Assembly: GCA_032027145.1 (NCBI GenBank)
Contig: JAVSMP010000001.1
Span: forward strand, 1,206,903 to 1,270,902
Length of the DNA stretch: 64,000 nt
DNA from: Ignavibacterium sp.
Lineage (GTDB): Bacteria > Bacteroidota > Ignavibacteria > Ignavibacteriales > Ignavibacteriaceae
Reading direction: 5' to 3'
The translations under genes and the position numbers were made by a program. Position 1 is the first letter of the stretch. Each line of letters opens with the position of its first letter. The notes beneath the pieces are model-generated. The model searched no databases and had not been told where the DNA came from. It saw only the letters and a list, made by a program, of their open reading frames with translations. Shown in pieces: positions 3,333-37,340 of the stretch.

Positions 3333-3539
3333 TTTAACCTCACTTAAAAAATGATAAAAAATTTAATCAACAATTTATTCATTGATAGTAATAAATGTTA
3401 TAAATTGAAGAACAGACTAAGCAATAATTTTTTTAGTTTAAAATCATTAACTGAAAAATAGATTGTTACTGATGCAAACTCAAACAAATAAAATTAAAGC
3501 TATTTATTTAAAAAGAGCATTTACATTTTTGTGTAAATT

Positions 3540-3938
3540 ACAGAGTCTTCCAATATTCAAAAGGTAATTTTATCGAGCTGTATAACAATGAATCTAATAT
3601 ACACGATGATCCTTGGATAACAACATTAAACAGAATAGTTGCATTTGGTTGGGATAAAAAAGTCTTCCAATTGTACAACAATCAACCCAAACTATTATAC
3701 GATTTTTCTTCCACATCAAAATCAACATCAAGTTTATGGGGTAGAAGTATTAAAGATTTATTTTTTGAAGTTTATGGTGGATTGGGTCATTATAATGGAG
3801 ATAATATTCAAATACTATATCCCATTAATAAAACATTTTACATTATGAATTGCATACTTTTTGAAAAAGGAGGCATTCATTCTTTACTACGAATTTGAAA
3901 ATTTTAAGTTTTATGTTTTAAGAGGTAAAATAAATTAA
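3540..3938 (+). pseudogene. frameshifted 3' remnant of the propeller lipoprotein family
   Basis: No start codon or signal peptide. One frame (from about 3540 to about 3860) encodes ELYNNESN..., then GRSIKDLFFEVYGGLGHYNG, which lines up with GRNIKDIFLAKIDGIAHYNG near the end of the lipoprotein at 5927-6955. After about 3860 the similarity moves to another frame and ends in YVLRGKIN-stop, matching VFRGKLK-stop of the intact gene. The piece is therefore the last third of a paralogue with at least one frameshift and no 5' end. Two short ORFs that could be called here (from 3639 and 3671) are pieces of this remnant or out of frame. The 207 bases between the M24 gene and this remnant hold nothing I recognise. 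Confidence 0.75.
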
Positions 3939-4056: not shown

Positions 4057-4320
4057 AAGATAAGGACATAAAGCAGTTAATATTTTTGCAGCAAAAAAAA
4101 CATATACCCCAATTATTTAGGGAATTACTGTTTTTCTTCCTAATTTTGCCACACAAAAAGTATTGATTTTATCACTAAATGCTAAATGCAACAGAAAAAA
4201 ATGTCGGGGGAAAAAGTTCTATAAAGTCTGAAAATAATCTTGTCTTTACTGTTATTTAATTAAAAATATTCTTAAAAAATTAATTCATCTTTGATGAACA
4301 AAAAATAAACAGAGGTCTTT

Positions 4321-5661
4321 ATGTCAGATTACACAAATAAACTATTAGCAGAAGTAAAAGCTAAAAATCCTGCCGAACCAGAATTTCATCAGGCAGTTGA
4401 AGAAATAATGGGATCACTCGAGTTGGTATTACAACGTCATCCCGAATACCGTTCAATGAAAATATTAGAGCGAATGGTTGAACCTGAAAGAACAATTATT
4501 TTCCGTGTTCCTTGGGTAGATGATCAGGGAGAAGTTCACGTTAACCGTGGTTATAGGATCGAAATGAATTCGGCAATCGGACCCTACAAAGGCGGGATTA
4601 GATTTCACCCCTCAGTAACGCTCGGTATTTTAAAATTCTTGGCATTCGAACAAGTATTTAAAAACTCACTAACAACACTTCCAATGGGCGGCGGTAAAGG
4701 CGGTTCAGATTTTAATCCAAAGGGAAGATCAGATAATGAAATAATGAGATTCTGTCAGAGTTTTATGAACGAGTTGTTCAGACATATTGGTCCTGATACT
4801 GACGTTCCTGCCGGTGATATTGGTGTTGGTGCACGCGAGATTGGATATATGTTTGGACAATATAAAAGAATTAAAAACGAGTTTACCGGTGTACTAACCG
4901 GTAAAGGAATTAATTGGGGCGGATCACTTGTAAGACCAGAAGCAACCGGATTTGGCGTGGTTTACTTTGCTCAGGAAATGTTAAAAACCAAGAAACAAAC
5001 TTTTGATGGTAAAACCGTAGTAGTATCTGGATTTGGTAATGTTGCCTGGGGAGCTGTAAGAAAAGTTACAGAGCTTGGAGGTAAAGTTGTTACACTTTCA
5101 GGTCCCGATGGTTATATTTATGATCCTGATGGAGTTAAGGGTGAAAAGATTGATTATATGTTAAAACTGCGCTCAAGCAACAAAGATATTGTTGAAGATT
5201 ACGCAAAAGAATTTAAAGTAAAATTTGTCCCTGGTAAGAGACCCTGGGAAGTTAAATGTGATGTTGCTTTACCATGTGCAACACAAAATGAATTGAACGA
5301 AGAAAATGCAAAAGACCTTGTAAAGAATGGATGTATGTGTGTTTGCGAGGGTGCAAATATGCCTACAACTATCGAAGGATTTAAAGTGTTTACAGATGCA
5401 AAAATTCTTTATTCACCAGGTAAAGCTTCTAATGCCGGTGGTGTTGCAACATCTGGATTGGAAATGACTCAAAACTCTATGAGATTACCATGGAGCAGCG
5501 AAGAAGTTGATAAACGCTTACACGAAATTATGGTACGTATCCATGATACTTGTATTAATACAGCGGAAAAATATGGAACTCCCGGAAGCTATGTTAACGG
5601 TGCAAATATCGCTGGTTTCCTTAAAGTTGCAAATGCTATGCTGGATCAGGGAGTTGTATAG
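4321..5661 (+). CDS. gdhA: NADP-type glutamate dehydrogenase
   Basis: Catalyses reversible reductive amination of 2-oxoglutarate to glutamate and so links ammonium assimilation with the TCA cycle, in the cytoplasm. The 446-residue length is that of class I hexameric bacterial GDH. Seen: substrate-binding stretch KGGIRFHPSV near 90, catalytic region PMGGGKGGSDFNPKG near 121 with the active-site lysine, PAGDIGVGAREIGYM near 161, and a Rossmann nucleotide-binding stretch VVSGFGNVAWGA near 238. The Ala after GFGN-V and the overall class I form fit the NADPH enzymes, but coenzyme choice is inference. AGAGG precedes the ATG. It is monocistronic, with a strong terminator 34 bases after the stop, and it stands as a healthy housekeeping gene within a decaying island. 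Confidence 0.95.
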   Translation: MSDYTNKLLAEVKAKNPAEPEFHQAVEEIMGSLELVLQRHPEYRSMKILERMVEPERTIIFRVPWVDDQGEVHVNRGYRIEMNSAIGPYKGGIRFHPSVTLGILKFLAFEQVFKNSLTTLPMGGGKGGSDFNPKGRSDNEIMRFCQSFMNELFRHIGPDTDVPAGDIGVGAREIGYMFGQYKRIKNEFTGVLTGKGINWGGSLVRPEATGFGVVYFAQEMLKTKKQTFDGKTVVVSGFGNVAWGAVRKVTELGGKVVTLSGPDGYIYDPDGVKGEKIDYMLKLRSSNKDIVEDYAKEFKVKFVPGKRPWEVKCDVALPCATQNELNEENAKDLVKNGCMCVCEGANMPTTIEGFKVFTDAKILYSPGKASNAGGVATSGLEMTQNSMRLPWSSEEVDKRLHEIMVRIHDTCINTAEKYGTPGSYVNGANIAGFLKVANAMLDQGVV

Positions 5662-5694
5662 TAATTAACAATTGATAATTAAAAATTAACAATT

Positions 5695-5722
5695 AAGGCG
5701 ATTCGAAAGAGTCGCCTTTTTT
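5695..5722 (+). terminator. rho-independent terminator of gdhA
   Basis: AAGGCGA (5695-5701) pairs perfectly with TCGCCTT (5712-5718) and is followed by seven T. Its GGCGAT...TCGCC core recurs in other terminators of this window. Confidence 0.85.
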
Positions 5723-5793
5723 TATTTCTACACCAATATTTTTCTACGTCATTTCTATCTCTTAAATTTTTTCAACAAGTAAATTTTTATTGT

Positions 5794-6036
5794 CAGCTTA
5801 ATTACCTTTTACCTGACACTAATTGTAAGTTAAATTGTTTATTGTGTTTTGGATTTTTTTTCTAATTTTTTTTTCTATCATATAAGTACAATAATTGTTA
5901 TAAGAAAGCATAGGAGGAACAAAGGGATGCTTAAAATAAATTATTTGTTTCTAAGTTTGTTTTTAATTGCTTTGTTTGTTTTAACTATTAGCTGCAATAC
6001 CACCGAACCAACCGATAACATTAAACCCGGAAGAAG
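5794..6036 (+). repeat. direct repeat, copy 1: shared leader and lipoprotein signal block
   Basis: About 243 bases match 8409-8651 without gaps at an offset of 2615 and with only about a dozen differences. The block covers the untranslated leader, the AGGAGG ribosome site, the ATG and the first ~35 codons including the lipobox. Downstream the two genes differ strongly. Its first ~30 bases also match the end of the transposase-like fragment joined to copy 2. Confidence 0.9.
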
Positions 6037-6955
6037 GGATTATACATGGAAGGTGGATACCTTGGACATTCCGTTCACGACATTGCAGAGAATTTGGGGA
6101 AGTTCACCAGACGACGTATGGGCAATTGGACCCGGTGGTGACAAAGATAAAACCATATATCATTTTGATGGCAAAAAATGGAAGACGGATGGAATATCAA
6201 GACCACTAGCCCCTACTTCAATTTTTGGTTTTGCACCTGATAATGTTTGGATAGGTGGAAGAGGCGGTGAGATTTGGCATTTTAATGGATTTAATTTGAG
6301 CAAGATTTTTACAATGAACATTACTGGATACAACTTTTATGGGTTTGAAAATATCTGGGGCGATGCTATCAATAATGTATATGCAGTAGGCTATGCTGAA
6401 GATGGTGTAACATATAAAGGGATTATTGCTTTGTATGATGGCGTTACCTGGGAAAATTTAGATATACCTATAATTAAGAATTCATTTATTAAAATACAAC
6501 GCGGTATTAAATCAAATAATAATTATTTCATTCTTGCTTATCGTTTCGAACAATTCGCAGAAGATACATCTTATATATACGAATTTGATGGATTAAATCT
6601 TAACAAAATATATCAGGGAATCACTACTACACAAGAATTAGCTGAACTAGCCTGTATTAACGGTAAAATATATATACGTGAAGGCTATAATATTTTTGAA
6701 TATAATAATAAAAAATTAGACTTATTGTTTAAACTACCTGCGGAAGCATCAATATCAGGTAGAAATATTAAAGATATTTTTCTTGCAAAGATAGATGGAA
6801 TTGCACACTATAATGGTAGTGATATCCAATATTTGTACCATTTTGGTAATAATATTTCATTAAGTGGTGAAGTGATATTTGATAATGAAATATTCTTTTT
6901 AGCTTATGATTTTAATAACTCATTAAATTTGGTGTTTAGGGGTAAACTTAAATAA
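5927..6955 (+). CDS. outer-surface lipoprotein with WGSSPDDVW propeller-like repeats
   Basis: The start is the ATG at 5927, nine bases after AGGAGG, and not an upstream ATG at 5849 whose extra 26 residues fall in the leader. The 342-residue product has a hydrophobic signal and lipobox ending TISC at about residue 23, so it is lipidated and exported. The body has repeats of the type IWGSSPDDVWAIG, FAPDNVWIGGRG and IWHFNG, with HYNG near the end. Such W-G/D-V-W blades are typical of propeller-fold surface lipoproteins common in this lineage; no catalytic motif is visible and the function is unknown. It is first of a possible three-gene run (5927, 7029, 7548) with gaps of 73 and 18 bases. A paralogue follows at 8542 and a broken one precedes at 3540. 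Confidence 0.8.
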   Translation: MLKINYLFLSLFLIALFVLTISCNTTEPTDNIKPGRRDYTWKVDTLDIPFTTLQRIWGSSPDDVWAIGPGGDKDKTIYHFDGKKWKTDGISRPLAPTSIFGFAPDNVWIGGRGGEIWHFNGFNLSKIFTMNITGYNFYGFENIWGDAINNVYAVGYAEDGVTYKGIIALYDGVTWENLDIPIIKNSFIKIQRGIKSNNNYFILAYRFEQFAEDTSYIYEFDGLNLNKIYQGITTTQELAELACINGKIYIREGYNIFEYNNKKLDLLFKLPAEASISGRNIKDIFLAKIDGIAHYNGSDIQYLYHFGNNISLSGEVIFDNEIFFLAYDFNNSLNLVFRGKLK

Positions 6956-7028
6956 GCATGAAAACTTTTATGTGAGAAGAATTTAGTGTCGAAAAAATTA
7001 TATAATATTGTTAAAAGAAGGTTGTACT

Positions 7029-7529
7029 ATGGTTAAAAAGAAAATAGAATACGTTTTATATTTAATTGTTTTTATTCAATTATCTGGTTGTACTTATAAC
7101 GTTAGTAGATACGATTTTGATGCCCCTTTAACTTTTTATGACAGAGTAAATGAATTATGTTATCAGCAAGAGGTTAATATAGTCACCGATGATAGTAGCT
7201 TCTATTTTGGGACCAATTTTATTATTTCCGACAGCACTTCATCTTTCTTTAACATAAATACTGGAAATGAAAAAATAATTTTAACCCAATCTATAAATTA
7301 CTTGGCATTTAAAAGTCACTCCTATGGTCTATTAAAGAATGCTACAGCGGGTGCAATCGCTGGTGTAGGACTAGGTTTGTTTTTAGGACAATTTTCTGAA
7401 AGTTTATTTGGTAAAAAACAGGAGGTTCCGGCACTATTATACGTTCCAATAGTTGGAATTGCTGGGGCTGTAATTACAACAGCTATTATATGGGTTCTTG
7501 GTAATGAAGTAATAATTAAATTTGAATGA
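7029..7529 (+). CDS. small lipoprotein with glycine-rich membrane segments
   Basis: I chose the ATG at 7029 (GAAGG seven bases upstream) over one at 7008, giving 166 residues. The start MVKKKIEY, a hydrophobic stretch and LSGC at about residue 21 form a lipoprotein signal. Near residues 105-160 are two hydrophobic stretches, the first glycine-rich (AGAIAGVGLGLFLG), the second ending TAIIWVLG, resembling a glycine-zipper hairpin. I do not recognise a family. It lies between the propeller lipoprotein and the secreted enzyme, 18 bases ahead of the latter, so the three are probably cotranscribed. Confidence 0.65.
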   Translation: MVKKKIEYVLYLIVFIQLSGCTYNVSRYDFDAPLTFYDRVNELCYQQEVNIVTDDSSFYFGTNFIISDSTSSFFNINTGNEKIILTQSINYLAFKSHSYGLLKNATAGAIAGVGLGLFLGQFSESLFGKKQEVPALLYVPIVGIAGAVITTAIIWVLGNEVIIKFE

Positions 7530-7547
7530 AAAATCAAAGAGAAATTC

Positions 7548-8201
7548 ATGAAAAAGTTCTTGTTATTACTAATATTTTTTAATCTTACTATTTTTTCAAA
7601 TTTATTCGCACATGGACAGGGTGTGCATCAACATATGGTTAGACAAGCATATGAGGTTTTAAAAACTATTTATGGTGGCGACATTCCAATATTGCAAGAT
7701 CATGTGGGTTTTAATGAACAGGGAACAATTGTTTTTGATCCCGGCAATTTATTGGTAATTGGTGCTTACAGGGAAGATGAAGAGGATGCAGTATACTGGA
7801 ATTATGGACAACCAGGTGGCTTTGCTGTGACAAATACACACTTTTATGAACCTGATGGTGGTGAGAACTGGCACTTTGTTGTACTAGGGGCAACTTATGA
7901 AAATGCATATCAAAAAGCACTAAAGTATATTTACGGTGGGTATGAATTGCGTGTCCCATATCCTGGTGCTTCTATCATCGAATGCTATGATGCTCCTACA
8001 AATTTATTTGAATGGTATAAAAATGGCAGTATCTACTATAAAGGATTTATTGATATGACAGTACCTGCTCATGTACATGGGGATAGACATTGGCCAGATT
8101 TAGATACATATGAAGAATGGATGAATAACCCGACAGTTTATAATAATTATACAGCAAGCACTGGTTTATCTCAGGGTAATATATTTGATCTTAGTAATTA
8201 G
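7548..8201 (+). CDS. secreted zinc phospholipase C-like protein, C-terminus cut off by an IS remnant
   Basis: A 217-residue protein with a signal peptide (MKKFLLLLIFF...LFA, cleaved near 21). Residues 22-40 (HGQGVHQHMVRQAYEVL) and 164-175 (DMTVPAHVHGD) resemble the spaced His/Asp ligands of zinc-dependent phospholipase C and S1/P1-nuclease-fold proteins; a third His lies in NTHFYEPDGG. This is a motif-level similarity, not a firm assignment. The last G of the TAG stop is also the first base of an IS256-like terminal sequence (8201 on), so the stop is created at the insertion junction and the native C-terminus is gone. Such enzymes are usually longer, so activity is doubtful. Confidence 0.6.
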   Translation: MKKFLLLLIFFNLTIFSNLFAHGQGVHQHMVRQAYEVLKTIYGGDIPILQDHVGFNEQGTIVFDPGNLLVIGAYREDEEDAVYWNYGQPGGFAVTNTHFYEPDGGENWHFVVLGATYENAYQKALKYIYGGYELRVPYPGASIIECYDAPTNLFEWYKNGSIYYKGFIDMTVPAHVHGDRHWPDLDTYEEWMNNPTVYNNYTASTGLSQGNIFDLSN

Positions 8202-8440
8202 GGAGTGTAAATAATTCTGTGTAAACGGTTAAAGTAAGAAATTAGTTAAGTGCTGTGAAGCCCCGATTTTCATCGGGATAAACTCCGCGGAACAGCAGTT
8301 AACTTGGCGAAAATCTGTTAAGGGTTTTCAAATTTTAAAAACTAATTACTTTTAACTATTATCCAAAAGGAGATTTACACAATGGAACTAACTCCCGAAA
8401 TGATCGAGCAGCTTAATTCCCTTTTACCCGACACTAATTG
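8201..8440 (+). mobile_element. IS256-like 5' end remnant
   Basis: It starts GGGAGTGTAAATAATTC, then TGTGTAAAC, an end type seen in IS256-family elements. It contains a large interrupted palindrome (8244-8256 with 8292-8304, inner CCCGAT/ATCGGG), then AAAGGAG and an ATG at 8382 encoding MELTPEMIEQLNSLLPDTN, like the first residues of a mutator-type transposase. The frame closes soon after inside the lipoprotein leader repeat. No 3' end is present, so this is a truncated copy. The family name is from recollection of end and N-terminus style and should be tested. Confidence 0.5.
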
Positions 8441-8651
8441 TAAGTTAATTTATTTATTGTGTTTTGGATTTGTTTTCTAATTTTTTTTTCTATTATATAA
8501 GTACAATAATTGTTATAAGAAAGCATAGGAGGAACAAAGGGATGCTTAAAATAAATTATTTGTTTCTAAGTTTGTTTTTAATTGCTTTGTTTGTTTTAAC
8601 TATTAGCTGCAATACCACCGAACCAACCGAGGAGCTTAAACCCGGAAGACG
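8409..8651 (+). repeat. direct repeat, copy 2: shared leader and lipoprotein signal block
   Basis: Partner of 5794-6036, collinear without gaps. Here the left end is fused in frame to the transposase-like N-terminus, so the junction of mobile DNA and lipoprotein leader lies at about 8409-8440. Confidence 0.9.
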
Positions 8652-9618
8652 TGATTATGTTTGGTCAGTAGACAGTGTTGATTATGATACTCTACCTGGA
8701 AGAATAGAATTATATTCAATCTGGGGTAGTTCTCCAACAGATGTTTGGGGTGCAGGATTTTCAGAAGATGTAAGAAATTGTCTTTGGCATTATGATGGTG
8801 AAAAATGGAACCGTGCGGTATGGAATACTCCTATAACTGAATTTGGTAATGGTTCTAAAAGTGTTGGAGGGGTTTGGGGAACGGCGCAAAATGATGTATG
8901 GGCTTTTGGAGGAAGATTATTTAGCAATCCTGAAAGAGTTGAACCCTTTATAATGCATTATGATGGAAATCAATGGAAAGAAGTAATTGGACCTAAGGAC
9001 CAAATGCCAATTGGCTTTAGAGATATTTACGCACTTAGAAAAGATCATTTTTGGATATCGTCATCTGATTTTGTAAGTGAATATAAAGATGGAATCTGGA
9101 AAAAATATTTTATTGGTGAAAATTATATTATTCAGTCCATAGAGGGAATTGGTGCCAATGTTTACTTAATAGCATATCCTATAGGTATAGACTCTTTATT
9201 TCTAATGAAATTAAATGGAAATAAATTCACAATAGTTGATAATACGTCTCTATTTGGACAAGGAAAATTTGGACATCTTGCTTTAACATTTATGGAAAAG
9301 AAAGTCATCACTGCGGACGACTATGGGATTTATGAAGCAGATGTAAGCGAAGCTACTATTCTTTATAATTCATGGAGTACCATTGTCAGTACATCATCAG
9401 TAGGATTCGCAAATTCTTTATGGTTATCTAATAAAAATATTTGGTTGGTAGGAAATTATATATATCCCTATCACTTCAACGGAACGAATTGGAAGGAAAT
9501 AGATATTTATTTGGGAAATAATCAACAATCAGAAAATGTTTTTTGGGGTATTTGGGGAGATGGTAATGAAATTTTTATTGGGGATACTGAAAATAGTGTA
9601 GTGTATCACGGTAAATAA
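8542..9618 (+). CDS. outer-surface lipoprotein, paralogue of the 5927 gene
   Basis: The start is the ATG at 8542 after AGGAGG, 78 bases downstream of the longest possible ORF start, giving 358 residues. The lipoprotein signal is identical to that of the 5927 gene (lipobox TISC), followed by NTTEPTEELKPGRRDYVW. Repeats include IWGSSPTDVWGAG, GVWGTAQNDVWAFG, LWHYDG and IMHYDG, and the protein ends with a WGIWGDGNEIFIG blade. After the first ~40 residues it is only distantly similar to its paralogue. No catalytic residues are recognised; a surface-binding role is a guess. It is followed after 39 bases by the disrupted protease gene, repeating the pattern lipoprotein then secreted hydrolase seen at 5927-8201. 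Confidence 0.8.
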   Translation: MLKINYLFLSLFLIALFVLTISCNTTEPTEELKPGRRDYVWSVDSVDYDTLPGRIELYSIWGSSPTDVWGAGFSEDVRNCLWHYDGEKWNRAVWNTPITEFGNGSKSVGGVWGTAQNDVWAFGGRLFSNPERVEPFIMHYDGNQWKEVIGPKDQMPIGFRDIYALRKDHFWISSSDFVSEYKDGIWKKYFIGENYIIQSIEGIGANVYLIAYPIGIDSLFLMKLNGNKFTIVDNTSLFGQGKFGHLALTFMEKKVITADDYGIYEADVSEATILYNSWSTIVSTSSVGFANSLWLSNKNIWLVGNYIYPYHFNGTNWKEIDIYLGNNQQSENVFWGIWGDGNEIFIGDTENSVVYHGK

Positions 9619-9657: not shown

Positions 9658-10112
9658 ATGAAATATTCTATACAAATTCTGCTAATCATTATTGTGCTAC
9701 TTTCGTCAGTTGGATATTCACAATATGGTTATTGTAATGATGGACAAGGAAATGATAATAATCCTTGCGGCCTTCCGGAAGGGAATTATCAGATTAGCAA
9801 TCATAAATGGTATAAGTCAGAATTAAAATATTTTTACGTAAATGGAACTAATGATATTGAGAGTGATTTGGAAAAACAAGCTTTTGAGGCTGCATTTGAT
9901 AAATGGGCGGAAGCTGTTCCATTTGATTTTGTAGAAGTATTAAGCCAGAATGAAGCGGATATTAAAATTGTTTATTTGGCTTATTCGGATTTTTCCGAAT
10001 TAATGGGACATGAAACAAGTGCATATGCCCTAGCTTTTCAACCTGAAAATGACTGTAGAGGATTGTTAGCGCTAAATGATGGGATGAGATTTTCTTTGGA
10101 AATGAATCCTTC
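9658..10112 (+). pseudogene. matrixin-type metalloprotease, 5' part (split by IS3 element)
   Basis: AGGAG precedes the ATG. The product begins with a signal peptide (cleavage near SVGYSQ) and then a matrix-metalloprotease-like N-terminal catalytic stretch: FDKWAEAVPFDFVEV, NEADIKIVYL, and YALAFQPENDCRGLLALNDG, as in proteins where these precede HExxHxxGxxH. The coding sequence is broken after codon 151 by the IS element whose left end is at 10113; the ORF as found runs on into the IS to a stop at 10153-10155, giving an inactive 165-residue product. Deleting the IS and one CTTC repeat restores the frame to the segment at 11517. Confidence 0.85.
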
Positions 10113-10179
10113 TGTAACGCTTCAGAAGGAAATGGAATTTTATAATTTTGTGTAATGTAAAAATAGAAAGGAAATTCTA

Positions 10180-10506
10180 ATGTCCGAAACAAAAAGAGAA
10201 AGAAAACATTACTCCCCGGATCAGAAAGTTCTTATCCTTAGAGAACTTCTTGAAAACAATCTTCCCATCAGCCAGCTTGCTGAAAAGTACCAGGTTCACC
10301 CTAACGACATCTATAACTGGAAGAAAAAACTCTTTGAATATGCTAAAGATATTTTTCAGAGTAAATCAGTTAATCAGAAACAAACCTCCCTGGAACAGAA
10401 AAAGATTGAAAAGCTTCAGTCTAAATTAAGAGATCGTGAGGAGGCGATAGCCTTTCTGCTTAAAGAAAACATCGAAATAAAAAAAAGTATAGATGGGGAG
10501 ATATGA
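10180..10506 (+). CDS. IS3-family transposase OrfA (HTH protein)
   Basis: A 108-residue protein with AAAGGAAATT before the ATG. A helix-turn-helix of the transposase-8 type occupies about residues 10-55 (SPDQKVLILRELLENNL, ISQLAEKYQVHPNDIYNWKK) and a leucine-rich coiled coil follows at about 60-105 that normally mediates OrfA/OrfAB multimerisation. It binds the IS ends. Its last codons contain a run of eight A (10479-10486), a slippery site where -1 slippage would join it to OrfB. Its TGA overlaps the ATG of orfB (ATGA, 10503-10506). Confidence 0.93.
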   Translation: MSETKRERKHYSPDQKVLILRELLENNLPISQLAEKYQVHPNDIYNWKKKLFEYAKDIFQSKSVNQKQTSLEQKKIEKLQSKLRDREEAIAFLLKENIEIKKSIDGEI

Positions 10507-11462
10507 ACAGAAAGTGGGTTGAACCTGACGTAAGAGATAATGTTGTGGAGTTTGTAAACTTCATAAGACTCAAGACTGATATTCCGCTTAAAGGCATCAC
10601 TCCTCTTTTAGGCATTAGTTCCAGTAAATATTATTCCTGGATTGAGAGGAAAGGAGTAAAAAATAACCATAACGGAAAGACTTCCAAGGAACATTGGTGC
10701 CTGGACTGGGAGAAGAAAGCCATTATTGTCTATGCTAAAGTTCATCCCGTAGAAGGTTACAGACGCCTTACTTACAAGATGATTGATGATAATGTTGTTG
10801 CTGTTTCGCCTGCTACTACTTACAGAATACTTAAAGCTGCCGGCTTACTTAACAGGTGGAATAAAGTTAAAAGATCTTCTAAAGGAGGTGGCTTTGATCA
10901 GCCAACAGCTCCTCACCAGCACTGGCATACCGATATTAAGTATGTTAACTATCACGGAACTTTTCTGTTTCTTATTTCTGTTATTGATGGTTACTCACGA
11001 TATATAGTTCATCACGAACTAAGACGAAGTATGCAACAGTTTGATGTTCAGTTAACCTTGCAGAGAGCTTTAGAGAAGTACCCCGGCACAAAGCCAAGAA
11101 TCATTTCAGATAATGGTCCTCAGTTTATTTCCAAAGACTTTGCTGAATATCTGAAGCTTCTAGGACTTCAGCATATAAGAACCTCTGTTGCTTATCCTCA
11201 GAGTAATGGCAAGATCGAACGATACCATAGAACTATTCATCAGGACTGCTTAATGAAAACCTCTTTAATCAATCTTGATGATGCACGCAAACAGATTTCA
11301 TCTTATATTGATTACTACAATACTAAAAGACTTCACAGTTCGTTGTTTTATTTAACACCTGAAGATTTTCTTATTGACAGAGTTGAAGAAAAGCTGAAAG
11401 TAAGAGAACGAAAACTTAAAGAAGCTAAACTGAAAAGAATTGAGGTTAGATATGCAAGCTAA
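10503..11462 (+). CDS. IS3-family transposase OrfB (DDE integrase)
   Basis: A 319-residue catalytic subunit. An HTH_21-like N-region (YAKVHPVEGYRRLTYKM) precedes an rve integrase core with the DDE triad visible as Asp in HWHTDIKYV (~145), Asp in IISDNGPQF (~205) and Glu in SNGKIERYHRT (~240), then the conserved YNTKRLHSSL. It is in the -1 frame relative to orfA. GGGGAG two bases before its ATG could also allow independent or coupled initiation. The fusion OrfAB is the usual active transposase in this family; no stops interrupt the -1 frame between the A-run and this ATG. Confidence 0.95.
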   Translation: MNRKWVEPDVRDNVVEFVNFIRLKTDIPLKGITPLLGISSSKYYSWIERKGVKNNHNGKTSKEHWCLDWEKKAIIVYAKVHPVEGYRRLTYKMIDDNVVAVSPATTYRILKAAGLLNRWNKVKRSSKGGGFDQPTAPHQHWHTDIKYVNYHGTFLFLISVIDGYSRYIVHHELRRSMQQFDVQLTLQRALEKYPGTKPRIISDNGPQFISKDFAEYLKLLGLQHIRTSVAYPQSNGKIERYHRTIHQDCLMKTSLINLDDARKQISSYIDYYNTKRLHSSLFYLTPEDFLIDRVEEKLKVRERKLKEAKLKRIEVRYAS

Positions 11463-11512
11463 TCTACCTTATTTAGTTAACACCAAATTCCATTTTCCGC
11501 TGAACCAATACA

Positions 11513-13524
11513 CTTCAAACGCTGTAGATTTATACTATGTTGCTCTACATGAGATGGGACATGTTTTGGGTTTATGTCATTCAAATAATACCAGTACTGT
11601 TATGCATTATGAATATGGAAGCAGTAAAAGAAATTTACATTCTTATGATATTACTGGCATTAGACAAATATATGATGTGGTAAAGGTAAAAAATGAATTT
11701 AAAAATCCAGGTGGTTCATTAGCGAATGGGGGTATAATAAATGCTGAAGTAAATCCAGGGGTTTATAAAGATTTTAATACGGATGGTTTACCAAATAATG
11801 AAAAATCTTTTGGTTTTAATAAAAATTCACAAAGGCGATTTGAAGCTAAAGAACAAACTTTTCAGAATTTAGATAGAAAGTTTAATCCTTTCCAACAAAA
11901 TAATGGAGGATGGATTTTAAATGATGTTACTGTTTTGGGATACAATCAGGTTCTTAATACTTCAGTAAATACAGGGACGTATAAAGCCAGATATCGATAT
12001 AAAACCAATATAGGATTAAATGCAATAACAGAGTTTAATGGAACAATCCCTACTGGAATAACTATAAGCCAAATATATCAATATGAAAATGGTTCAATAA
12101 TGGCACCTTCACCATATCAACCAAGTGGAAGTAGTATAAATTACAACTTTTCCTACTGGACAGATGATTTTACAAAAGATAATCCAAGAGTAATTACACC
12201 AACCGACAACCAAACTTATACAGCACTCTACAAATACCCTCATCATTCAAACACTGGTTCATTTGTTAACAGCGGTCAGCGTAAAGTAATTCGATCTGAG
12301 GATGGATACCTACATCTTGTTTATGAGAGTATGGGTTATGTTTGGTATGAAAGAAGCACAGACAACGGCGCAACCTGGCATATAATGAATGGCGGTAAAC
12401 CAATTGATAAAAATCCATCCAAATCTCCTTCTATAGATTTTTATTATGGCTATCAAAGACTTATTATAGTTTATCAAACCTGGGCAGAAGATTATAATGA
12501 GTTTGCAGCTATTAAAGCTGCTTGTTTTAAATTAGGTGAATTAGAATTTACCACAACGGTAGAACAAAGTTATCTTAGTACATACTCTGAAGTAAATTAT
12601 AAGCCGGTTGTAGGTTATGCCAGCAATGATAATATTGCTGTTGCCTGGGAAGATTATGGCGTTTGGGTTTTAACCGGCGTGCTATCTTTTAGTACAAACC
12701 AGATAATCTGGAATAATATTATCGGAGTAGATAATAATAACAGTGATAATATAAATCCAACTATTGCAGCTTACAAAACAACACCAGGCACAGCAACATT
12801 TCACTTAGCGTGGCAGAGCAATTACAGCACTATCAGATATTGCAACTTAACCGAGCAAAGCAAAGGTTCTTTCCTGGTTTTTGCAGTAGATCAGGTTTCA
12901 CAGGGCTGCGGTTTTCCTGTTAATTATTATCCTTCGATAAATGTTTCAAATTCAAATGATGTACAGCTTGTTTGGATAGGTACGCCTTATTATGGCTCCA
13001 CTTACAGAAAAGCTTTATCAAGAAGCAGAACCACAAACTGGAGTTCTTCGTTTGCCTAGTATGGCAATAATGTTGAAAAATTAAAAACAGCAACTTTTAG
13101 TTTTAATATAACCGGTTTGCCTACTTCATCGTTAGCTATAAGATTAAAAGTAAATAATAATCTCAAACCACAATATGCTGCAGCTGTAATTAAATCCGAT
13201 GAAAGCGTACTTTTAAAAAATAATCCTATTGAGTTAAACTTATCCGGGACAGAAACAGTTAAGGAATATTCTCTTGATCAGAATTACCCTAATCCATTTA
13301 ATCCAAGCACAACCATAAAATTCCAGATACCCAAAGATGGTTTTGTTTCAGTCAAAGTATATGATATACTCGGTAATGAAATCACAACTCTTATAAATGA
13401 AGAAAAATCATAAGGAAGATATGAAGTTATCTTCAATGCAAGTTCGCTAGCAAACGGAGTGTACATATATAAAATCCAGTCTGGTGATTTTAATAGCTCA
13501 AAGAAGATGATACTTATCGAGTAA
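11513..13524 (+). pseudogene. matrixin-type metalloprotease with propeller and T9SS domain, 3' part
   Basis: Continues the gene begun at 9658 (frame resumes at codon TCA across the duplication). It starts NAVDLYYVALHEMGHVLGLCHS, the HExGHxxGxxH zinc site plus a following VMHYEY Met-turn. Then come a linker and an Asp-box-type region (ERSTDNGATWH near 12360) and the sorting domain ([16 protein letters not shown] near 13280, SSKKMILIE at the end). Two in-frame stops interrupt it: TAG at 13057-13059 and TAA at 13411-13413, each followed by clearly homologous coding in the same frame. The repaired gene would encode 820 residues. It would have been an exported, surface-attached protease. An ORF reading from 11440 starts inside the IS and is not a real start. 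Confidence 0.88.
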
Positions 13525-13802: not shown

Positions 13803-13813
13803 AAAAAGAATTC

Positions 13814-14092
13814 TTAAACACTCTGAATATTATAACCGCCGCTAAATAAAGAACTGAGCATTGTCCATAATGCAGCAAAGAAAATTATCATTAAAACAAT
13901 TACAATAAGCATCATAATAAGTGCTGCCTGTGCCCACGTTTTTTTACTTGGATGAGTACTATCACTAAATGCCCAGACAAACATCATAATAATTCCAACA
14001 AGCGGAATTGCCTGAATGATAAAAGTAATTAACCAATCTCCAATTGTCATTGGTTTATAATTACTGTTAAAGCCAGTATTTAAAGAATCCAT
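13814..14092 (-). CDS. small membrane protein with two transmembrane helices
   Basis: I chose the ATG at 14092, preceded by AGGAGG, over one at 14143, giving 92 residues. Helices lie at about residues 18-42 (LITFIIQAIPLVGIIMMFVW) and 54-80 (AALIMMLIVIVLMIIFFAAL), separated by a short polar loop with SDSTHPSKKTWAQ. Similar small proteins with IPLVGIIMMFVWAF are widespread in Bacteroidota but I know no function. It is a single gene with its own terminator. Confidence 0.75.
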   Translation of the reverse strand: MDSLNTGFNSNYKPMTIGDWLITFIIQAIPLVGIIMMFVWAFSDSTHPSKKTWAQAALIMMLIVIVLMIIFFAALWTMLSSLFSGGYNIQSV

Positions 14093-14400: not shown

Positions 14401-17400
14401 ATGGAAAGAAAAAAAATAACGATTGATGGCAATGAAGCAGCTGCATATGTTGCATATAATACAAACGAAGTAATTGCTATTTATCCAATTACGCCTTCAT
14501 CAAATATGGGTGAGTGGTGCGATGCTTGGTCAGCAGTTAATAAGAAAAATATATGGGGAATCGTTCCTTCTGTAAGCGAATTACAAAGTGAAGGCGGTGC
14601 ATCTGGAAGTGTACATGGCGCATTACAAACTGGTGCCTTAACTACAACATTTACAGCATCACAAGGGTTGTTGTTAATGATTCCGAATATGTTCAAAATA
14701 GCCGGTGAGTTAACTTCAACAGTATTTCATGTTTCCGCTAGATCAGTAGCTGCCGCAGCACTTTCAATTTTTGGCGATCACTCTGATGTTATGGCAACAC
14801 GTTCAACAGGATTTGCGTTGTTGTCATCCAATTCTGTTCAGGAAGTAATGGATTTTGCTTTGATTTCGCAAGCTGCAACTTTAGAGGCTCGTGTTCCTTT
14901 TATTCACTTCTTTGACGGATTCAGAACTTCGCACGAAGTAATGAAAATTGAAGAGTTGACAAAAGCAGATATGCAGGCTATGCTTGATGAAGACCTTATC
15001 TTTGCACATCGCAAACGAGCATTAACTCCTGATAATCCGGTTATGAGAGGTACAGCTCAAAACCCTGATGTTTATTTTCAGGGCAGAGAAACTGTAAATC
15101 CGTTCTATATCGCCTGTCCGGCAATTGTTCAAAAACAGATGGATAAATTCGCCAAGCTAACAGGTCGTCAATATCACTTATTCGATTATGTCGGTGCACC
15201 AGATGCAGAAAAGATTATTGTAATGATGGGCTCCGGAAGTCAGGCTGCTGAAGAAACTGTAGAATTCTTAGCTGCAAAAGGAGAAAAGGTTGGTTTAATT
15301 AAAGTAAGATTATACAGACCATTTTCTGTTGATCACTTTATTAATGCACTGCCCAAAACTGTAAAATCAATTGCTGTTCTGGATAGAACAAAAGAACCTG
15401 GTTCAAGCGGTGAACCGCTTTACCTTGATATTGTAAATTCAATATCAGAAAAATATATGGCTGGCGAATTGCAGTTTGCATATCCCAAAATTGTAGGCGG
15501 AAGATATGGATTATCTTCCAAAGAATTTACTCCTGCAATGGTTAAAGCTGTGCTTGATAATTTATCCAAAGAAAAACCTAAAACACATTTTACAGTCGGA
15601 ATTATAGAAGATGTTACTAACAGTAGTTTGGATTTTGATCCAAAATTTTCTGTTGAATCTGAAGAGACTTTCCGCGGTAAATTTTATGGACTTGGTGCAG
15701 ATGGTACAGTTGGTGCAAATAAAAATTCAATTAAGATTATCGGTGAAGGAACTGATTATTTTGCACAGGGTTATTTTGTTTATGATTCAAAGAAATCAGG
15801 TTCAACCACTGTATCTCATTTAAGATTCGGACCGAAAGAAATAAAATCAACCTACCTGATTAACAAAGCACATTTTCTTGCTTGTCATCAGCAGGTATTT
15901 TTAGAACAATGGGATATGCTCAAAGAAGCAAGTGAAGGCTCTACATTTTTATTAAATACAAAGATTGATAAGGAAAATGTTTGGGATTCATTACCTGAAA
16001 AAGTTCAAAGGGATCTTATTGAAAAGAAAATGAAATTCTGGATTATTGATGCTTACAAAGTTGCCGAAGAAACCGGAATGGGCGGAAGAGTTAATACAAT
16101 TATGCAGACCTGTTTCTTTGCAATATCAAACATCTTTCCTCAGGAAAAAGCAATTGATCTGATAAAAGATTCAATTAAGAAAACTTACGGTGCTAAAGGC
16201 GATAAGATCGTTCAAATGAATTTTGATGCTGTTGATAAAACACTTGCTAATCTGTTCGAAGTTCAAGTTCCAAATAAAATCACCAGCAAAATAAAGATGC
16301 AGCCGCCTGTTTCCGGCAATGCACCTGATTTTGTTAAAGAAGTTACAGCAAGAATTATTGCAGGCGAAGGTGATCAATTACCGGTTAGCAAAATGCCGAT
16401 TGACGGAACCTTTCCGCTATCAACAACAAAATGGGAAAAGAGAAACATTGCCCTTGAAGTACCTGTCTGGGATAAGGAAATATGTATTCAATGTAATAAA
16501 TGCGTTATCGTTTGTCCGCATGCTGCTATACGTGCTAAAGTTTATGAAGAAAAAGATCTTAAAGGAGCACCTGAAACATTTAAGCACATCAGTTTTAAGT
16601 CTAAAGATTACGGCGACAATATGCTCTACTCGTTACAGGTAGCAGTAGAGGATTGTACTGGTTGTGAGCTTTGTGTTGATGTTTGCCCTGTTAAGAATAA
16701 AAAGGAAACTAAGTTAAAAGCAATCAATATGTCTGAGCAGCTTCCTATACGCGAGCAGGAAAGATTGAATTGGGATTTCTTCTTAAATATTCCTGAACTT
16801 GACAGAAGAAAAATTGCAGTTTCTAAAGTTAAAGATTCACAATTCTTAGAACCGCTGTTCGAATTTTCAGGTGCTTGTGCCGGCTGCGGTGAAACTCCGT
16901 ATGTAAAGTTAGTAAGTCAGTTATTTGGTGATAGAACAATGGTTGCAAACGCCACAGGATGTTCATCTATTTATGGCGGTAATTTGCCAACAACACCTTG
17001 GGCAGCAAATAAAGATGGACGCGGTCCTGCCTGGTCTAATTCATTATTTGAAGATAATGCAGAGTTCGGTTATGGATTCAGATTGGCTGTTGATAAACAC
17101 AATATGCAGGCAAAAGAACTTCTTAAATCACTATCTGCAGAAATAGGTAATGATCTTGTTGATGCCCTGATTAACTCACCGCAAAAGGATGAAGCTGATA
17201 TTTATGAACAAAGAGAAAGAGTAACGGCTTTAAAGAAAAAATTAGAAGATATGCTGAATGCAAAGTCTAATGGTAAAACCAGCGAAGTCAAGCATTTATT
17301 AAGTCTGGCAGATTATCTTGTAAAAAAATCTGTTTGGATTATGGGTGGTGATGGCTGGGCGTATGATATTGGTTATGGCGGATTAGATCACGTGTTAGCT

Positions 17401-17994
17401 TCGGGAAAAAATGTAAACATTCTTGTTCTTGATACAGAAGTTTATTCAAATACCGGCGGTCAGTGTTCTAAATCCACACCAAGAGCTGCAGTTGCTAAAT
17501 TTGCCGCTGCTGGTAAACCTGTTGCAAAAAAAGACCTTGGTTTGATGGCTATGACTTACGGAAATGTTTATGTTGCTAAAGTTGCAATGGGTGCAAATGA
17601 TCAGCATACATTAAGAGCATTTCTTGAAGCAGAAGCTTACGATGGTCCGTCATTGATAATTGCTTACAGCCATTGTATAGCTCACGGAATCAATATGGGC
17701 ACTGCAATGCAAAATCAAAAAGCTGCTGTTGATTCCGGCTACTGGCCCCTATTCAGATATAATCCTGAACTTGAAGCTGAGGGAAAGAATCCTTTTAAAA
17801 TGGACTCAAAAGGTCTGAAGATTAATCTTAAAGATTATGCTTATATGGAAACAAGATACAAGATGCTTACAAAGTCTCATCCACAGCTTGCAGAACAACT
17901 GATAAAAGAAGCTCAGGATGATGTTATAAGAAGATGGAAAGAATATGAAAGATTAGCAGCTTACGATCCGCAAAAAACAGAAGCAGGTGCATAG
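14401..17994 (+). CDS. nifJ: pyruvate:ferredoxin (flavodoxin) oxidoreductase, single-chain
   Basis: Oxidatively decarboxylates pyruvate to acetyl-CoA and CO2, passing electrons to ferredoxin, or works in reverse for CO2 fixation. At 1197 residues it has the full fused-domain length. Seen in order: pyruvate-binding domain with YPITPSSNMGEW near 25; CoA/transketolase-like domain; the EKR-type linker region near 440-490; two [4Fe-4S] motifs, CIQCNKCVIVCP near 696 and CTGCELCVDVCP near 751; proximal-cluster cysteines in CAGCGETPY near 826; and the TPP-Mg site GDGWAYDIGYGG then NTGGQCSKSTPR near 1020. All expected cysteines are present. It indicates an anaerobic or oxygen-tolerant fermentative/reductive life. 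The DHOD-like gene 93 bases downstream is likely in the same transcript. Confidence 0.96.
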   Translation: MERKKITIDGNEAAAYVAYNTNEVIAIYPITPSSNMGEWCDAWSAVNKKNIWGIVPSVSELQSEGGASGSVHGALQTGALTTTFTASQGLLLMIPNMFKIAGELTSTVFHVSARSVAAAALSIFGDHSDVMATRSTGFALLSSNSVQEVMDFALISQAATLEARVPFIHFFDGFRTSHEVMKIEELTKADMQAMLDEDLIFAHRKRALTPDNPVMRGTAQNPDVYFQGRETVNPFYIACPAIVQKQMDKFAKLTGRQYHLFDYVGAPDAEKIIVMMGSGSQAAEETVEFLAAKGEKVGLIKVRLYRPFSVDHFINALPKTVKSIAVLDRTKEPGSSGEPLYLDIVNSISEKYMAGELQFAYPKIVGGRYGLSSKEFTPAMVKAVLDNLSKEKPKTHFTVGIIEDVTNSSLDFDPKFSVESEETFRGKFYGLGADGTVGANKNSIKIIGEGTDYFAQGYFVYDSKKSGSTTVSHLRFGPKEIKSTYLINKAHFLACHQQVFLEQWDMLKEASEGSTFLLNTKIDKENVWDSLPEKVQRDLIEKKMKFWIIDAYKVAEETGMGGRVNTIMQTCFFAISNIFPQEKAIDLIKDSIKKTYGAKGDKIVQMNFDAVDKTLANLFEVQVPNKITSKIKMQPPVSGNAPDFVKEVTARIIAGEGDQLPVSKMPIDGTFPLSTTKWEKRNIALEVPVWDKEICIQCNKCVIVCPHAAIRAKVYEEKDLKGAPETFKHISFKSKDYGDNMLYSLQVAVEDCTGCELCVDVCPVKNKKETKLKAINMSEQLPIREQERLNWDFFLNIPELDRRKIAVSKVKDSQFLEPLFEFSGACAGCGETPYVKLVSQLFGDRTMVANATGCSSIYGGNLPTTPWAANKDGRGPAWSNSLFEDNAEFGYGFRLAVDKHNMQAKELLKSLSAEIGNDLVDALINSPQKDEADIYEQRERVTALKKKLEDMLNAKSNGKTSEVKHLLSLADYLVKKSVWIMGGDGWAYDIGYGGLDHVLASGKNVNILVLDTEVYSNTGGQCSKSTPRAAVAKFAAAGKPVAKKDLGLMAMTYGNVYVAKVAMGANDQHTLRAFLEAEAYDGPSLIIAYSHCIAHGINMGTAMQNQKAAVDSGYWPLFRYNPELEAEGKNPFKMDSKGLKINLKDYAYMETRYKMLTKSHPQLAEQLIKEAQDDVIRRWKEYERLAAYDPQKTEAGA

Positions 17995-34934: not shown

Positions 34935-36866
34935 ATGAAAAAGTTTGGCTTGCTTTTTTTTGTTGTTCTTTCTTTAACATTTTCTTCTCAACTTTCTGCT
35001 CAAAATGTTTCTCCGCATTTCTCCGAATTAAAAGGAATGGAGGATGCTCAGGGTAATACACATCTGTTGTATAGGATATACAGTTACCAGATTTTACAAC
35101 CATTCGGTTTTTATGAAGATAATTCTTTGTATCACTTTGACCTCGGAAATCAGAAAGATACTTTATTTATTCGAGAATCCGGCAGTAATATCTCTGCTCA
35201 TATTTATATAGATGATTATAAAATTATAGACTTTAATCCAATACATTATATTTTTGCAGGCACTGTGTGCGGAATGGAATGTTCTCCATTTGCGTTTAAT
35301 TCAGAATATGGAATAATTTTTAATAATGGTTCGTGGGGTAATAGTGAAAAAATAGATTATGCAAAACAAAAAGATTGTATTTATTATGGTTTAATCGCCT
35401 GGGATATAGACTCATCAATTACGAGCATTAAAAGTTATGATGGAGGTTTATCTTGGGATACTCTGTCATCCAATAAAGTGTTTGTTTCTGTTAATCCATT
35501 TGACAATGAAATGTCATTTTACATTAGTGATATAAATTCCACTGTTTATAAATCAACAGATGAAGGCAAAAATTTTTTCATATGTGATACTCAATATACT
35601 CATTCAAATCCTGCACCTAACTTTTACTATGATACTGATGAATCTCACATTTATAGATCTTCATCAAAAAATACATATCCAGGTATATATTATTTATCAA
35701 TTTCGGATAACAAAGGCGAACCATTTTCTTGGCAAATAAAGTATGAAAGTATCGATCCGATTTTTATAACAATAGATGAATACCAATCTGGTGCAATTTA
35801 TTTAGCTGATGGAAATAAAATTATGTATTCATCAGATTATGGAAATACATTTAATCTATACAAAGAATTAGATAAAAAAATCATAGGCATATTTAAAAAG
35901 CCAAATTCTAACAAGCTATACGCTGCAACTAAATATAACCTATATGAGATAACTAATAATAGTATAACTGTAATCAAATCATTGCCGATTCCAGCTGAGG
36001 CTTTAGACTTCTATCCATTACAAATCGGAAATAAATGGTTTTATGAAAGAATTAATTACTCGCTTGATTGGATAACTGGAAATACAATTATTGATACAAG
36101 CTATTTTCAGCGCAGTGTTATAGGATTAGAAAACAAACCAAACGGAAAGAAGTATTATAAAATTGATGACTATGATTTTTACAATAAAGTACAACTTGTA
36201 AATTTTGAGAGGATTGATTCGCTTACTGGACTGGTTTTTAGATATGATTCAACTTTAGATTCAACAAATTTTGAATGTATCATCGATGATCTAATGGCAG
36301 AGAAAGGAAATCAAATTAACACTTCAAGATTGTATTCATTTTATAATCCCATTGGAATGATTTTCGAAAATGAGGACTACTTTAATGATTGGAGTTCTTA
36401 CAGAAAGAGAAATGGTTTTTCAACTGGTAGTTTAGGCGGTGATTATTATTCCTTAACTCAAGGTATTGGATTGGATTCTGTTTTTGTTTCATTAATAGAT
36501 GCTTTTGATGCACATATAGATATTAAAGGTTGTGTTATAGATGGAATTGTTTACGGCGATACAACATTAACAGATATCATTGTGTGTTTTGATAGTTCCC
36601 CAACCAGTTATAATCTAAACCAAAACTATCCAAACCCATTTAACCCGGCTACAAAAATTACCTGGCAATCTCCATTAGCTGGTCATCAAACATTAAAAGT
36701 TTATGATGTTCTTGGTAATGAGGTTGCTACACTTATTGATGAATTTAGAAATGCAGGAATTTACGAAGTTGGTTTTGACGCATCAAAGCTTTCAAGCGGA
36801 GTTTATTTTTATCAGCTAAAGGCTGGAGATTACCTTAACACAAAAAAGATGTTGCTGATAAGATAA
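34935..36866 (+). CDS. exported Asp-box propeller protein with T9SS sorting domain
   Basis: 643 residues; GAGGG before the ATG, signal MKKFGLLFFVVLSLTFSSQLSAQ. Asp-box (BNR/sortilin) repeats are seen as SYDGGLSWDTL near 165, STDEGKNFF near 207 and SSDYGNTFNLY near 300, indicating a beta propeller. A middle region (FYPLQIGNKWFYERI near 360) resembles domains found in other exported proteins of the group but has no name I can give. The end is the type A sorting domain ([16 protein letters not shown] near 560, TKKMLLIR). Probably a surface-binding protein; no catalytic residues are recognised. Confidence 0.82.
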   Translation: MKKFGLLFFVVLSLTFSSQLSAQNVSPHFSELKGMEDAQGNTHLLYRIYSYQILQPFGFYEDNSLYHFDLGNQKDTLFIRESGSNISAHIYIDDYKIIDFNPIHYIFAGTVCGMECSPFAFNSEYGIIFNNGSWGNSEKIDYAKQKDCIYYGLIAWDIDSSITSIKSYDGGLSWDTLSSNKVFVSVNPFDNEMSFYISDINSTVYKSTDEGKNFFICDTQYTHSNPAPNFYYDTDESHIYRSSSKNTYPGIYYLSISDNKGEPFSWQIKYESIDPIFITIDEYQSGAIYLADGNKIMYSSDYGNTFNLYKELDKKIIGIFKKPNSNKLYAATKYNLYEITNNSITVIKSLPIPAEALDFYPLQIGNKWFYERINYSLDWITGNTIIDTSYFQRSVIGLENKPNGKKYYKIDDYDFYNKVQLVNFERIDSLTGLVFRYDSTLDSTNFECIIDDLMAEKGNQINTSRLYSFYNPIGMIFENEDYFNDWSSYRKRNGFSTGSLGGDYYSLTQGIGLDSVFVSLIDAFDAHIDIKGCVIDGIVYGDTTLTDIIVCFDSSPTSYNLNQNYPNPFNPATKITWQSPLAGHQTLKVYDVLGNEVATLIDEFRNAGIYEVGFDASKLSSGVYFYQLKAGDYLNTKKMLLIR

Positions 36867-37161: not shown

Positions 37162-37340
37162 AAATAAAATATTTTATCAAGTAATAGCCAAATATATAAA
37201 AGAGTTTATTGTGTTTTGGTAAACCGCAAATAATTAATAATTCCCGTTCGTCAATTGTAAGGGTTATCTATAATAATAAACCATCTTTGCGCTTAATACA
37301 TAAATATATTTGGTACAGAAAAAAATCTTTAGAGAAGTAT

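Follow-up and report, generated by a model that had tools for sequence, protein, structure and literature searches.

The window analysed here, a 64,000-nucleotide stretch of the Ignavibacterium sp. genome (contig JAVSMP010000001.1, positions 1,206,903 to 1,270,902), contains two lipoprotein genes, P1 and P2, which stand in the same orientation between a gdhA-like glutamate dehydrogenase gene and a pyruvate:flavodoxin oxidoreductase-like gene (PFOR), two names that we assume from reading the protein sequences. P1 and P2 share a near-identical 5′ block followed by unlike bodies, and related species hold other bodies at the same chromosomal place. It is probable that the bodies have been exchanged beneath a resident leader at this fixed slot, also across species borders, since silent-site divergence (dS) is low in the flanks and in the signal peptide and reaches 1.55 in the body. 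The analysis compares sequences and structure models; the genome studied is designated G000, and the comparison genomes, one per species and many of them in pieces, bear the other G-numbers.

The slot between gdhA and PFOR

The two copies of the 5′ block (5794-6043 and 8409-8658) align without gaps over 250 bp with 12 differences (95.2% identity; at 5804, 5814, 5834, 5837, 5857, 5879, 6016, 6017, 6019, 6020, 6035, and 6037). They comprise a leader, AGGAGG, the ATG that was chosen as the start of P1, a signal peptide, and a lipobox (..LTISC), and reach the PGRRDY segment. A preliminary description of this stretch had delimited a gapless, near-identical block of 243 bp with about a dozen differences and had called the proteins beyond it only distantly alike, and both statements agree with the present results: 11 of the 12 differences fall within those 243 bp, the match runs 7 bp further (to 6043/8658), and the two proteins, which are 53% identical over 125 amino acids with the block included, share 29-30% identity in their bodies alone, the near-identity stopping at PGRRDY after about 39 residues. 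The copies are direct, each is complete, and P1 and P2 are 2.6 kb apart. Chance similarity is excluded on a genome-wide scale, because copy 2 matches copy 1 with a BLAST E-value of 3.5e-109, with 2 matches in all in the 3.67-Mb genome; a longer query and a laxer search add two short matches of ~79%. The count of bodies attached to the block that the preliminary description had proposed therefore gives two copies with two bodies in this genome, to which a near-full-length copy in one (G002) of 5 other genomes of the genus is added; the other clusters of the family use other blocks. An RNA element in the leader was considered and rejected, as no Rfam family reaches its gathering score anywhere in the window.

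Within the block, a core of 136 bp is identical in both copies (0/136 differences vs 6/86 just upstream; Fisher p 0.003), and an identical run of that length arose in 15 of 20,000 random placements of the 12 differences. Constraint alone does not account for this identity, because G002 differs from both G000 copies inside the core; the pattern is consistent with gene conversion or a crossover in which the two copies, or a copy and incoming DNA, took part. A mosaic of the kind left by gene conversion is thus seen here, as an identical core with diverged edges, and again in the lipoprotein genes G002e and G003c, which are 93.7% identical over 604 bp and then break off.

The bodies belong to two separate groups. 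In a maximum-likelihood tree of 44 of the 45 lipoproteins (G032a, which has no recognisable body start, was excluded), P2 falls with G002e, G003c, G004a, and four more genes in an 8-row clade (type B), and P1 in a 36-row clade (type A), each with support 100/99. The nearest relative of P1 is G026d, from a genome of another family (85/86 in the tree; 50-51% in pairwise comparison). P1 has full-length matches of 36-41% to three genes at 1.00-1.01 Mb of the same genome, one of them with an in-frame stop, and relatives in 32 of the 41 genomes of the order. P2 matches the genes at 1.00-1.01 Mb mainly over its first 90-120 residues, with weaker second stretches, and has full-length relatives at 63% in two other species of the genus. 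Family matches were also found in two named genomes, bacterium BMS3Abin04 (unclassified in NCBI) and a Calditrichaceae metagenome-assembled genome.

The order gdhA, lipoprotein gene, type IX secretion system (T9SS) protein, PFOR is common to G000, G002, and G005, and at this one place, with conserved flanks, the three genomes hold bodies that are non-orthologous or over-diverged. G000 and G002 are 93.7% identical at the DNA level over 4253-6043 (gdhA, leader, signal peptide), and the match to G002 restarts from 8410; P1 and the G002 gene are 93.5% identical from -1497 to +117 and 28% identical in the body. G002 represents a sister species, and its slot comprises the same leader with a single P2-type (type B) body and a matrixin T9SS protein. 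Because the G002 block matches G000 twice, G000 resembles a G002-type locus to which a 2,615-bp unit has been added, with the leader doubled. In a third species, G005, the slot holds another, different body. Its homology to G000 ends after gdhA, except for 72 bp (around the lipobox-PGRRDY segment) and 109 bp, and restarts inside the partner gene. These 109 bp lie right of the slot in G000 (13812-13920). G005 has two copies of them, one ahead of the lipoprotein gene and one to the right of the partner, which form a 106-bp direct repeat (94%, 4740 bp apart; L127 1670-1775 and 6410-6515); the matching DNA is single in G000 and G002, right of the slot. The exchanged segment of G005, like that of G000, is framed by a direct repeat, in this case of flank DNA. 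No family gene follows gdhA in the stretches read of G001 (~6.6 kb), G003 (~7.8 kb), and G004 (~0.5 kb), and the type B gene of G003 sits on another contig.

Silent sites were compared by the Nei-Gojobori method, in which values above ~1 are near saturation and rough. Between G000 and G002, dS is 0.30 in gdhA, 0.28 in PFOR, 0.23-0.24 in the signal peptide (36 codons, P2 or P1 vs G002e), and 0.64 in the C-terminal part of the partner, compared with 1.55 in the P2/G002e body, about five-fold over the flanks. The reverse case also occurs: dS between G002e and G003c is 0.19 in codons 22-220 and 1.37 beyond, vs 1.08 in gdhA, and the bodies of G000e and G005b differ by 0.18, vs 0.64 in gdhA. These contrasts between body and flank genes indicate that the bodies have their own histories, with breakpoints at PGRRDY and within the body. 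The pair G000c/G002d (0.42 vs 0.30) looks close to vertical descent. The dN/dS of body segments is 0.11-0.45, and thus gives no sign of positive selection over whole segments. If leaders and bodies do have different histories, as exchange would imply, the naming of orthologs by N-terminus or by position is misleading. The gene G000e (L061 8647-9687) contains one in-frame TAA and its 94%-identical G005 counterpart is open, which looks like recent transfer followed by decay.

Shared 5′ ends and partner genes in other clusters

A sharp transition from a shared 5′ end to unlike bodies is found elsewhere in the family. Among 37 members from 10 genomes and one named genome (two contigs), a selection from the hits, 48 same-genome pairs have bodies that are no more than 50% identical; 6 of them, drawn from three genomes and including P1/P2, have in common a 5′ block (≥90% identity over ≥90 bp) that breaks off sharply at +117 to +138. 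In the 1.0-Mb cluster, genes c, d, and e are 91-98% identical from -562 or -1216 to +137, with bodies of 30-38% identity; G006a and G006b are 97% identical over -395 to +126 (521-bp 5′ regions), with bodies of 28%. The edges of the shared blocks vary between clusters. The two G006 genes (L154 10844-11869 and 17260 onward) are 6.4 kb apart with IS3-type genes (of insertion sequences, IS) between them, and each is followed by a secreted-type protein, those two being 40% alike.

As judged from the alignments, the swapped segment can extend into the N-terminal domain of the next, T9SS-secreted protein, the C-terminal part of which stays. In the slot, this C-terminal part is 73-83% alike across G000, G002, G003, and G005 (79-83% among the last three), and the N-domain is a matrixin after the P2, G002e, and G003c bodies (31-39% identical in this domain) and something else in G005, where both the body and the partner N-domain differ though the partner C-domain is conserved. 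In the 1.0-Mb cluster, genes d and e repeat a piece made up of the C-terminal half of a T9SS protein, the intergenic region, and the lipoprotein 5′ end; what differs between them is the body of the lipoprotein and the N-terminal portion of the T9SS protein. Body and partner are shared together by G005c/G006b (62% and 51%), by G000c/G002d (89% and 80%), and, with the ORF217-like gene that follows, by P1/G026d (51% and 35%). Some partners carry protease domains, by which a toxin role is not implied. In G000 the matrixin T9SS gene (9658-13413) is broken by IS3-type open reading frames (ORFs) and by a frame break before the sorting tail; in G002 it is an intact 1007-aa frame.

P1 and P2 are lipoproteins with a lipobox, probably members of one family with a propeller body, and are predicted to be located on the outer face; Cys23 is invariant in 29 of 29 aligned type A rows. 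The AlphaFold2 model of P1 is a closed propeller (pLDDT 90.9, pTM 0.85), and that of P2 is weaker (pLDDT 81.0). The best fold matches of P1 are Ycf48 (5ojp, E 2.1e-9) and virginiamycin B lyase (2z2n, Z 25.1, root-mean-square deviation 3.0, 275 aligned residues); however, the fold is barely informative on function, because 976 of 978 chains score Z 8 or more, and a virginiamycin lyase function of P1, for which the fold match is the sole ground, was rejected. P1, P2, and the two ORFs after P1 have no Pfam match above cut-off and no NCBIfam match; the hits of P2 to Rax2 (3.4e-6, 27.1 bits, cut-off 28.8) and of the P1 and P2 signal peptides to Bee_toxin lie below cut-off and were not used.

Similarity of bodies and similarity of partner N-domains are correlated (Pearson 0.71, with 0/5000 permutations as high) in 15 hand-picked lipoproteins of the 45, namely those with an assigned following T9SS-type protein and its N-terminus. 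Six others with listed neighbours (G000a, G003b, G005d, G021a, G026d, and G028a) were excluded, and the remaining 24 have no partner assigned, several of them preceding another family lipoprotein or a contig end. It is possible, though less likely than not, that the exchanged unit is a functional pair in which a surface propeller is fitted to the N-domain of the adjacent T9SS-secreted protein. A possible extension, offered with similar caution, is a polymorphic two-gene system, the constant outer ends of which would be the lipoprotein signal peptide (left) and the T9SS sorting domain (right), and the variable middle a matched propeller and effector or protease N-domain, passed between species in a single cassette; the task of the propeller would be to dock, hold, or neutralise its partner.

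Alternative explanations and features of the locus

Several observations weigh against exchange beneath a resident leader or against a matched pair. A shared 5′ block is absent from 42 of the 48 low-identity same-genome pairs; the leader is not always the resident part, because that of G005 itself differs from G000; the junction at 8409 looks IS-related or illegitimate; and each species is represented by one genome, several of them fragmented. Regarding the pair, the rank correlation in the same 15 lipoproteins is weak (Spearman 0.32, 8/5000 permutations), the best body and the best N-domain agree in 5 of 15, and joint inheritance of adjacent genes explains part of the correlation. Partners are 45% identical and bodies 31% in G006a/G029a, 40% and 28% in G006a/G006b, and related partners accompany unrelated bodies in G008c/G023b. 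In G004, the genes that come after a type B gene (L149) are unrelated ones and encode no T9SS protein. Homologs of the two ORFs after P1 mostly lie elsewhere: a listed family lipoprotein adjoins 1 of 11 other rows for one ORF and 1 of 8 for the other.

The same orientation of P1 and P2, their spacing of 2.6 kb, the shared leader, and the common fold pattern and WGSSP.DVW motif that both bodies keep would also be expected from a plain tandem duplication, in which one gene was copied, the leader remained under purifying selection, and the bodies diverged. This course of events is highly improbable, and was rejected on the body tree and dS: P1 groups with G026d in type A and P2 with G002e and G003c in type B, the differences of G002 inside the core mean that selection does not freeze it, and the G002 slot has a type B gene only. 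The clades, the G002 slot, and the jump in dS likewise speak against a block confined to this locus whose two bodies diverged gradually from one duplication with no exchange in relatives, the outcome that the preliminary description had named as fatal to its proposal. An identical core with diverged edges (6/86 upstream) is, by itself, a conversion footprint, and the tandem type A genes of G002 share signal peptides; both facts suit a homogenisation of leaders alone, in which old side-by-side paralogs had their 5′ ends kept alike by gene conversion and no body moved in. Such homogenisation is nevertheless unlikely to be the whole explanation, because G002 and G005 each have one slot gene with different bodies, the P2/G002e body has a dS five-fold that of its flanks, and the bodies of G000e and G005b, and in part those of G002e and G003c, are much more alike than vertical descent would allow.

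The left edge of copy 2 coincides with the truncated end of an element that we take, from its transposase protein, to belong to the IS256 family, at an 8-bp microhomology (CAGCTTAA) common to the IS copy and the leader. As read from this alignment, the 8409 edge is an IS junction and not a module boundary, and at least one step here was thus illegitimate or IS-linked. Together with ORF217, which ends at the left end of the remnant, and the IS3-type element in the next gene, this junction would suit an isolated rearrangement, with an IS256-type element having carried in or rearranged the segment with P1 and the repeat being of local significance only. That account is rather doubtful, since the 1.0-Mb cluster and G006 display the pattern again, there with a long stretch of common upstream DNA that continues directly into the gene (IS ends were searched at some of the junctions), and the exchange between G002 and G003 shows it too. 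A conserved leader and signal peptide with alternative lipoprotein bodies would be expected as well from programmed phase variation, in which a site-specific recombinase switches bodies behind one active leader, like mycoplasma Vpma. This is extremely unlikely here: the copies are direct, not inverted, P1 and P2 both have full leaders, the inverted repeats of at least 14 in 5500-9000 are four short, mostly AT-rich pairs, and the edges of the shared blocks differ between clusters. Tyrosine-recombinase genes (PF00589) occur at 6 places, none within ~490 kb of either cluster (serine recombinases were not searched), and mycoplasma-type switching was rejected for lack of a near tyrosine recombinase and of inversion sites.

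Exchange at the slot, the reading we prefer, starts from the arrangement seen in the sister species G002: the leader, a type B body, and the matrixin T9SS protein. In the G000 lineage, the type A body P1 and the genes that belong downstream of it would have entered as a second body at the leader, so that two direct copies of the leader now flank the inserted segment; gene conversion or crossover, at the time of insertion or afterwards, may account for the identity of part of the leader. The usual entry route would be homologous recombination in the conserved leader/PGRRDY segment, with an IS256-type end and the microhomology involved at 8409. The preliminary description had proposed a conserved delivery module with an exchangeable body, recombining at the 5′ block; the separate clades, the other body behind the same leader in G002, the jump in dS, and the six sharp-break pairs favour this idea, which has to be amended in that the exchanged unit can exceed the body and the 8409 edge is an IS junction. 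The features are listed in Table 1.

Table 1. Features at and around the gdhA-PFOR slot (window positions)
Feature	Position	Strand	Basis
Leader-like stretch before third member	3403..3530	+	94% over 128 bp to DNA upstream of G003c
Third member: C-terminal remnant of P1-type (type A) propeller lipoprotein gene, 5′ part lost	3540..3938	+	BLASTP to P1 residues 217-319, E 5e-8; open frame 3512-3898
gdhA-like glutamate dehydrogenase gene, left slot border	4321..5661	+	ORF; 98-100% aa in G005 and G002, slot downstream
5′ block copy 1 (leader, ribosome-binding site, start, signal peptide, lipobox, PGRRDY)	5794..6043	+	95.2% to copy 2, 91% to G002
Core identical in both block copies	5880..6015	+	0/136 differences vs 6/86 just upstream
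P1, lipoprotein, type A beta-propeller body	5927..6955	+	ORF; AlphaFold2 pLDDT 90.9; propeller matches; type A clade
Small lipoprotein-like ORF after P1	7029..7529	+	ORF; weak homolog directly after type A lipoprotein in G028 (24%, E 2e-6)
ORF217, N-terminal domain of secreted protein, ends at left end of IS remnant	7548..8201	+	Homolog two genes after G026d; several homologs much longer
Truncated left end of IS256-type (mutator transposase) element	8201..8416	+	93% to copy with 409-aa transposase ORF; more copies at 80-87%
CAGCTTAA, microhomology, left edge of block copy 2	8409..8416	+	Alignment
5′ block copy 2	8409..8658	+	Ungapped alignment to copy 1
P2, lipoprotein, type B body	8542..9618	+	ORF; 63% full-length to G002e and G003c; AlphaFold2 pLDDT 81.0; type B clade
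N-terminal part (matrixin catalytic domain) of T9SS partner gene of P2	9658..10155	+	Pfam Peptidase_M10 2.6e-11
Two IS3-type transposase ORFs inside matrixin gene	10180..11462	+	NCBIfam transpos_IS3 2.1e-53 (second ORF); 7.6e-9, below cut-off (first)
Partner gene remainder: matrixin end and conserved C-terminal part	11440..13059	+	Pfam M10 positions 99-158; 77% to G002, 74% to G005
T9SS sorting-tail fragment of partner gene	13117..13413	+	86% and 83% to G002 and G005 partner tails
PFOR-like gene, right slot border	14401..17994	+	98% and 96% aa in G002 and G005, same order

ORF217-like frames were compared at nine loci, where six are at least 495 aa long within the locus and three are short; two of the frames end in a T9SS motif, and a third is similar by eye. 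Since most of these frames are longer and some have the T9SS motif, the second neighbour of P1 may be a partner protein cut by the IS. The degraded third member that the preliminary description had placed at 3540-3938 is real; it retains only the C-terminal part and lacks the 243-bp block. It has no significant match to P2 (best E 0.30), and as read from the sequence its usual C-terminus carries on in another frame, shifted near the end. The leader-like stretch before it has a single 39-bp match elsewhere in its own genome (82%).

Other repeats occur in the window. Two direct copies of 300 nt (62904-63203 and 63579-63878; 99%, 675 nt apart) lie in and around an ORF at its right edge, and a 134-nt direct repeat (38128-38261 and 41569-41702; 96%, 3441 nt apart) places the 3′ end of the ORF at 37209-38261 again between genes. 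Stretches of T9SS sorting tail are found at 13336-13441, 30885-30990, 34151-34256, and 36678-36783, with 62-75% DNA identity to the first, and by these predicted tails the region is rich in T9SS substrates.

Comparison with known systems

If exchange at the slot is true, surface variation in a little-studied bacterial lineage comes about through the replacement of bodies while the export signals stay in place, even between species; the swap would cross a gene boundary, so that a receptor-like surface protein and its secreted neighbour may change together, and natural pairs would be available for binding or protection tests. Recombination-driven exchange of surface-protein alleles, and of modules with cognate neighbours, is already well known. 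What may set the slot apart is that the delivery signals of two genes form the limits of the exchanged unit. In the literature search, outside which most subscription papers lie, no paper on this lipoprotein family was found among the matches listed, and none combined Ignavibacteria, lipoprotein, recombination, and gene conversion; a search for T9SS, polymorphic toxin, lipoprotein, and immunity protein gave nothing on topic, judging by titles.

In mycoplasmas, Vpma, Vsp, and Vsa are lipoprotein families with shared upstream sequence and variable bodies (PMC2268961); however, Vpma genes invert via an adjacent Xer-type recombinase, whereas the present locus showed no inversion sites and no tyrosine recombinase nearby. 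The SitA lipoproteins of myxobacteria have homologous N-termini and unrelated C-terminal parts (PMC5562445), but they comprise a toxin domain and a long conserved N-terminus, in place of the ~39 near-identical residues and the propeller body found here. Ycf48 and virginiamycin B lyase, the fold matches of the P1 model, share 12-15% identity with it, and many unrelated propellers score nearly as high; the likeness is therefore one of fold only. TANFOR polymorphic toxins have been hypothesised to be T9SS substrates (PMC7073777).

Two further systems involve the exchange of segments. In contact-dependent inhibition (CDI) and Rhs systems, a constant part is joined to a variable part that is exchanged together with the neighbouring gene as a module, further modules lie beside the locus, and IS elements interrupt some of them (PMC3150448). 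By contrast, the first gene is constant at its N-terminus here and the second at its C-terminus, full start signals precede both bodies, and P1 and P2 yielded no toxin or immunity domain. In Porphyromonas gingivalis, T9SS and other surface proteins undergo allelic exchange and domain rearrangement, and surface proteins that include the lipoprotein-associated RagAB locus are reported to vary by allelic exchange and gene conversion between strains (PMC5266723). This is likewise a T9SS bacterium that varies its surface proteins, at one locus with a lipoprotein; the protein families differ, however, and the unit exchanged in the slot described here can take in the last part of one gene together with the first part of its downstream neighbour.

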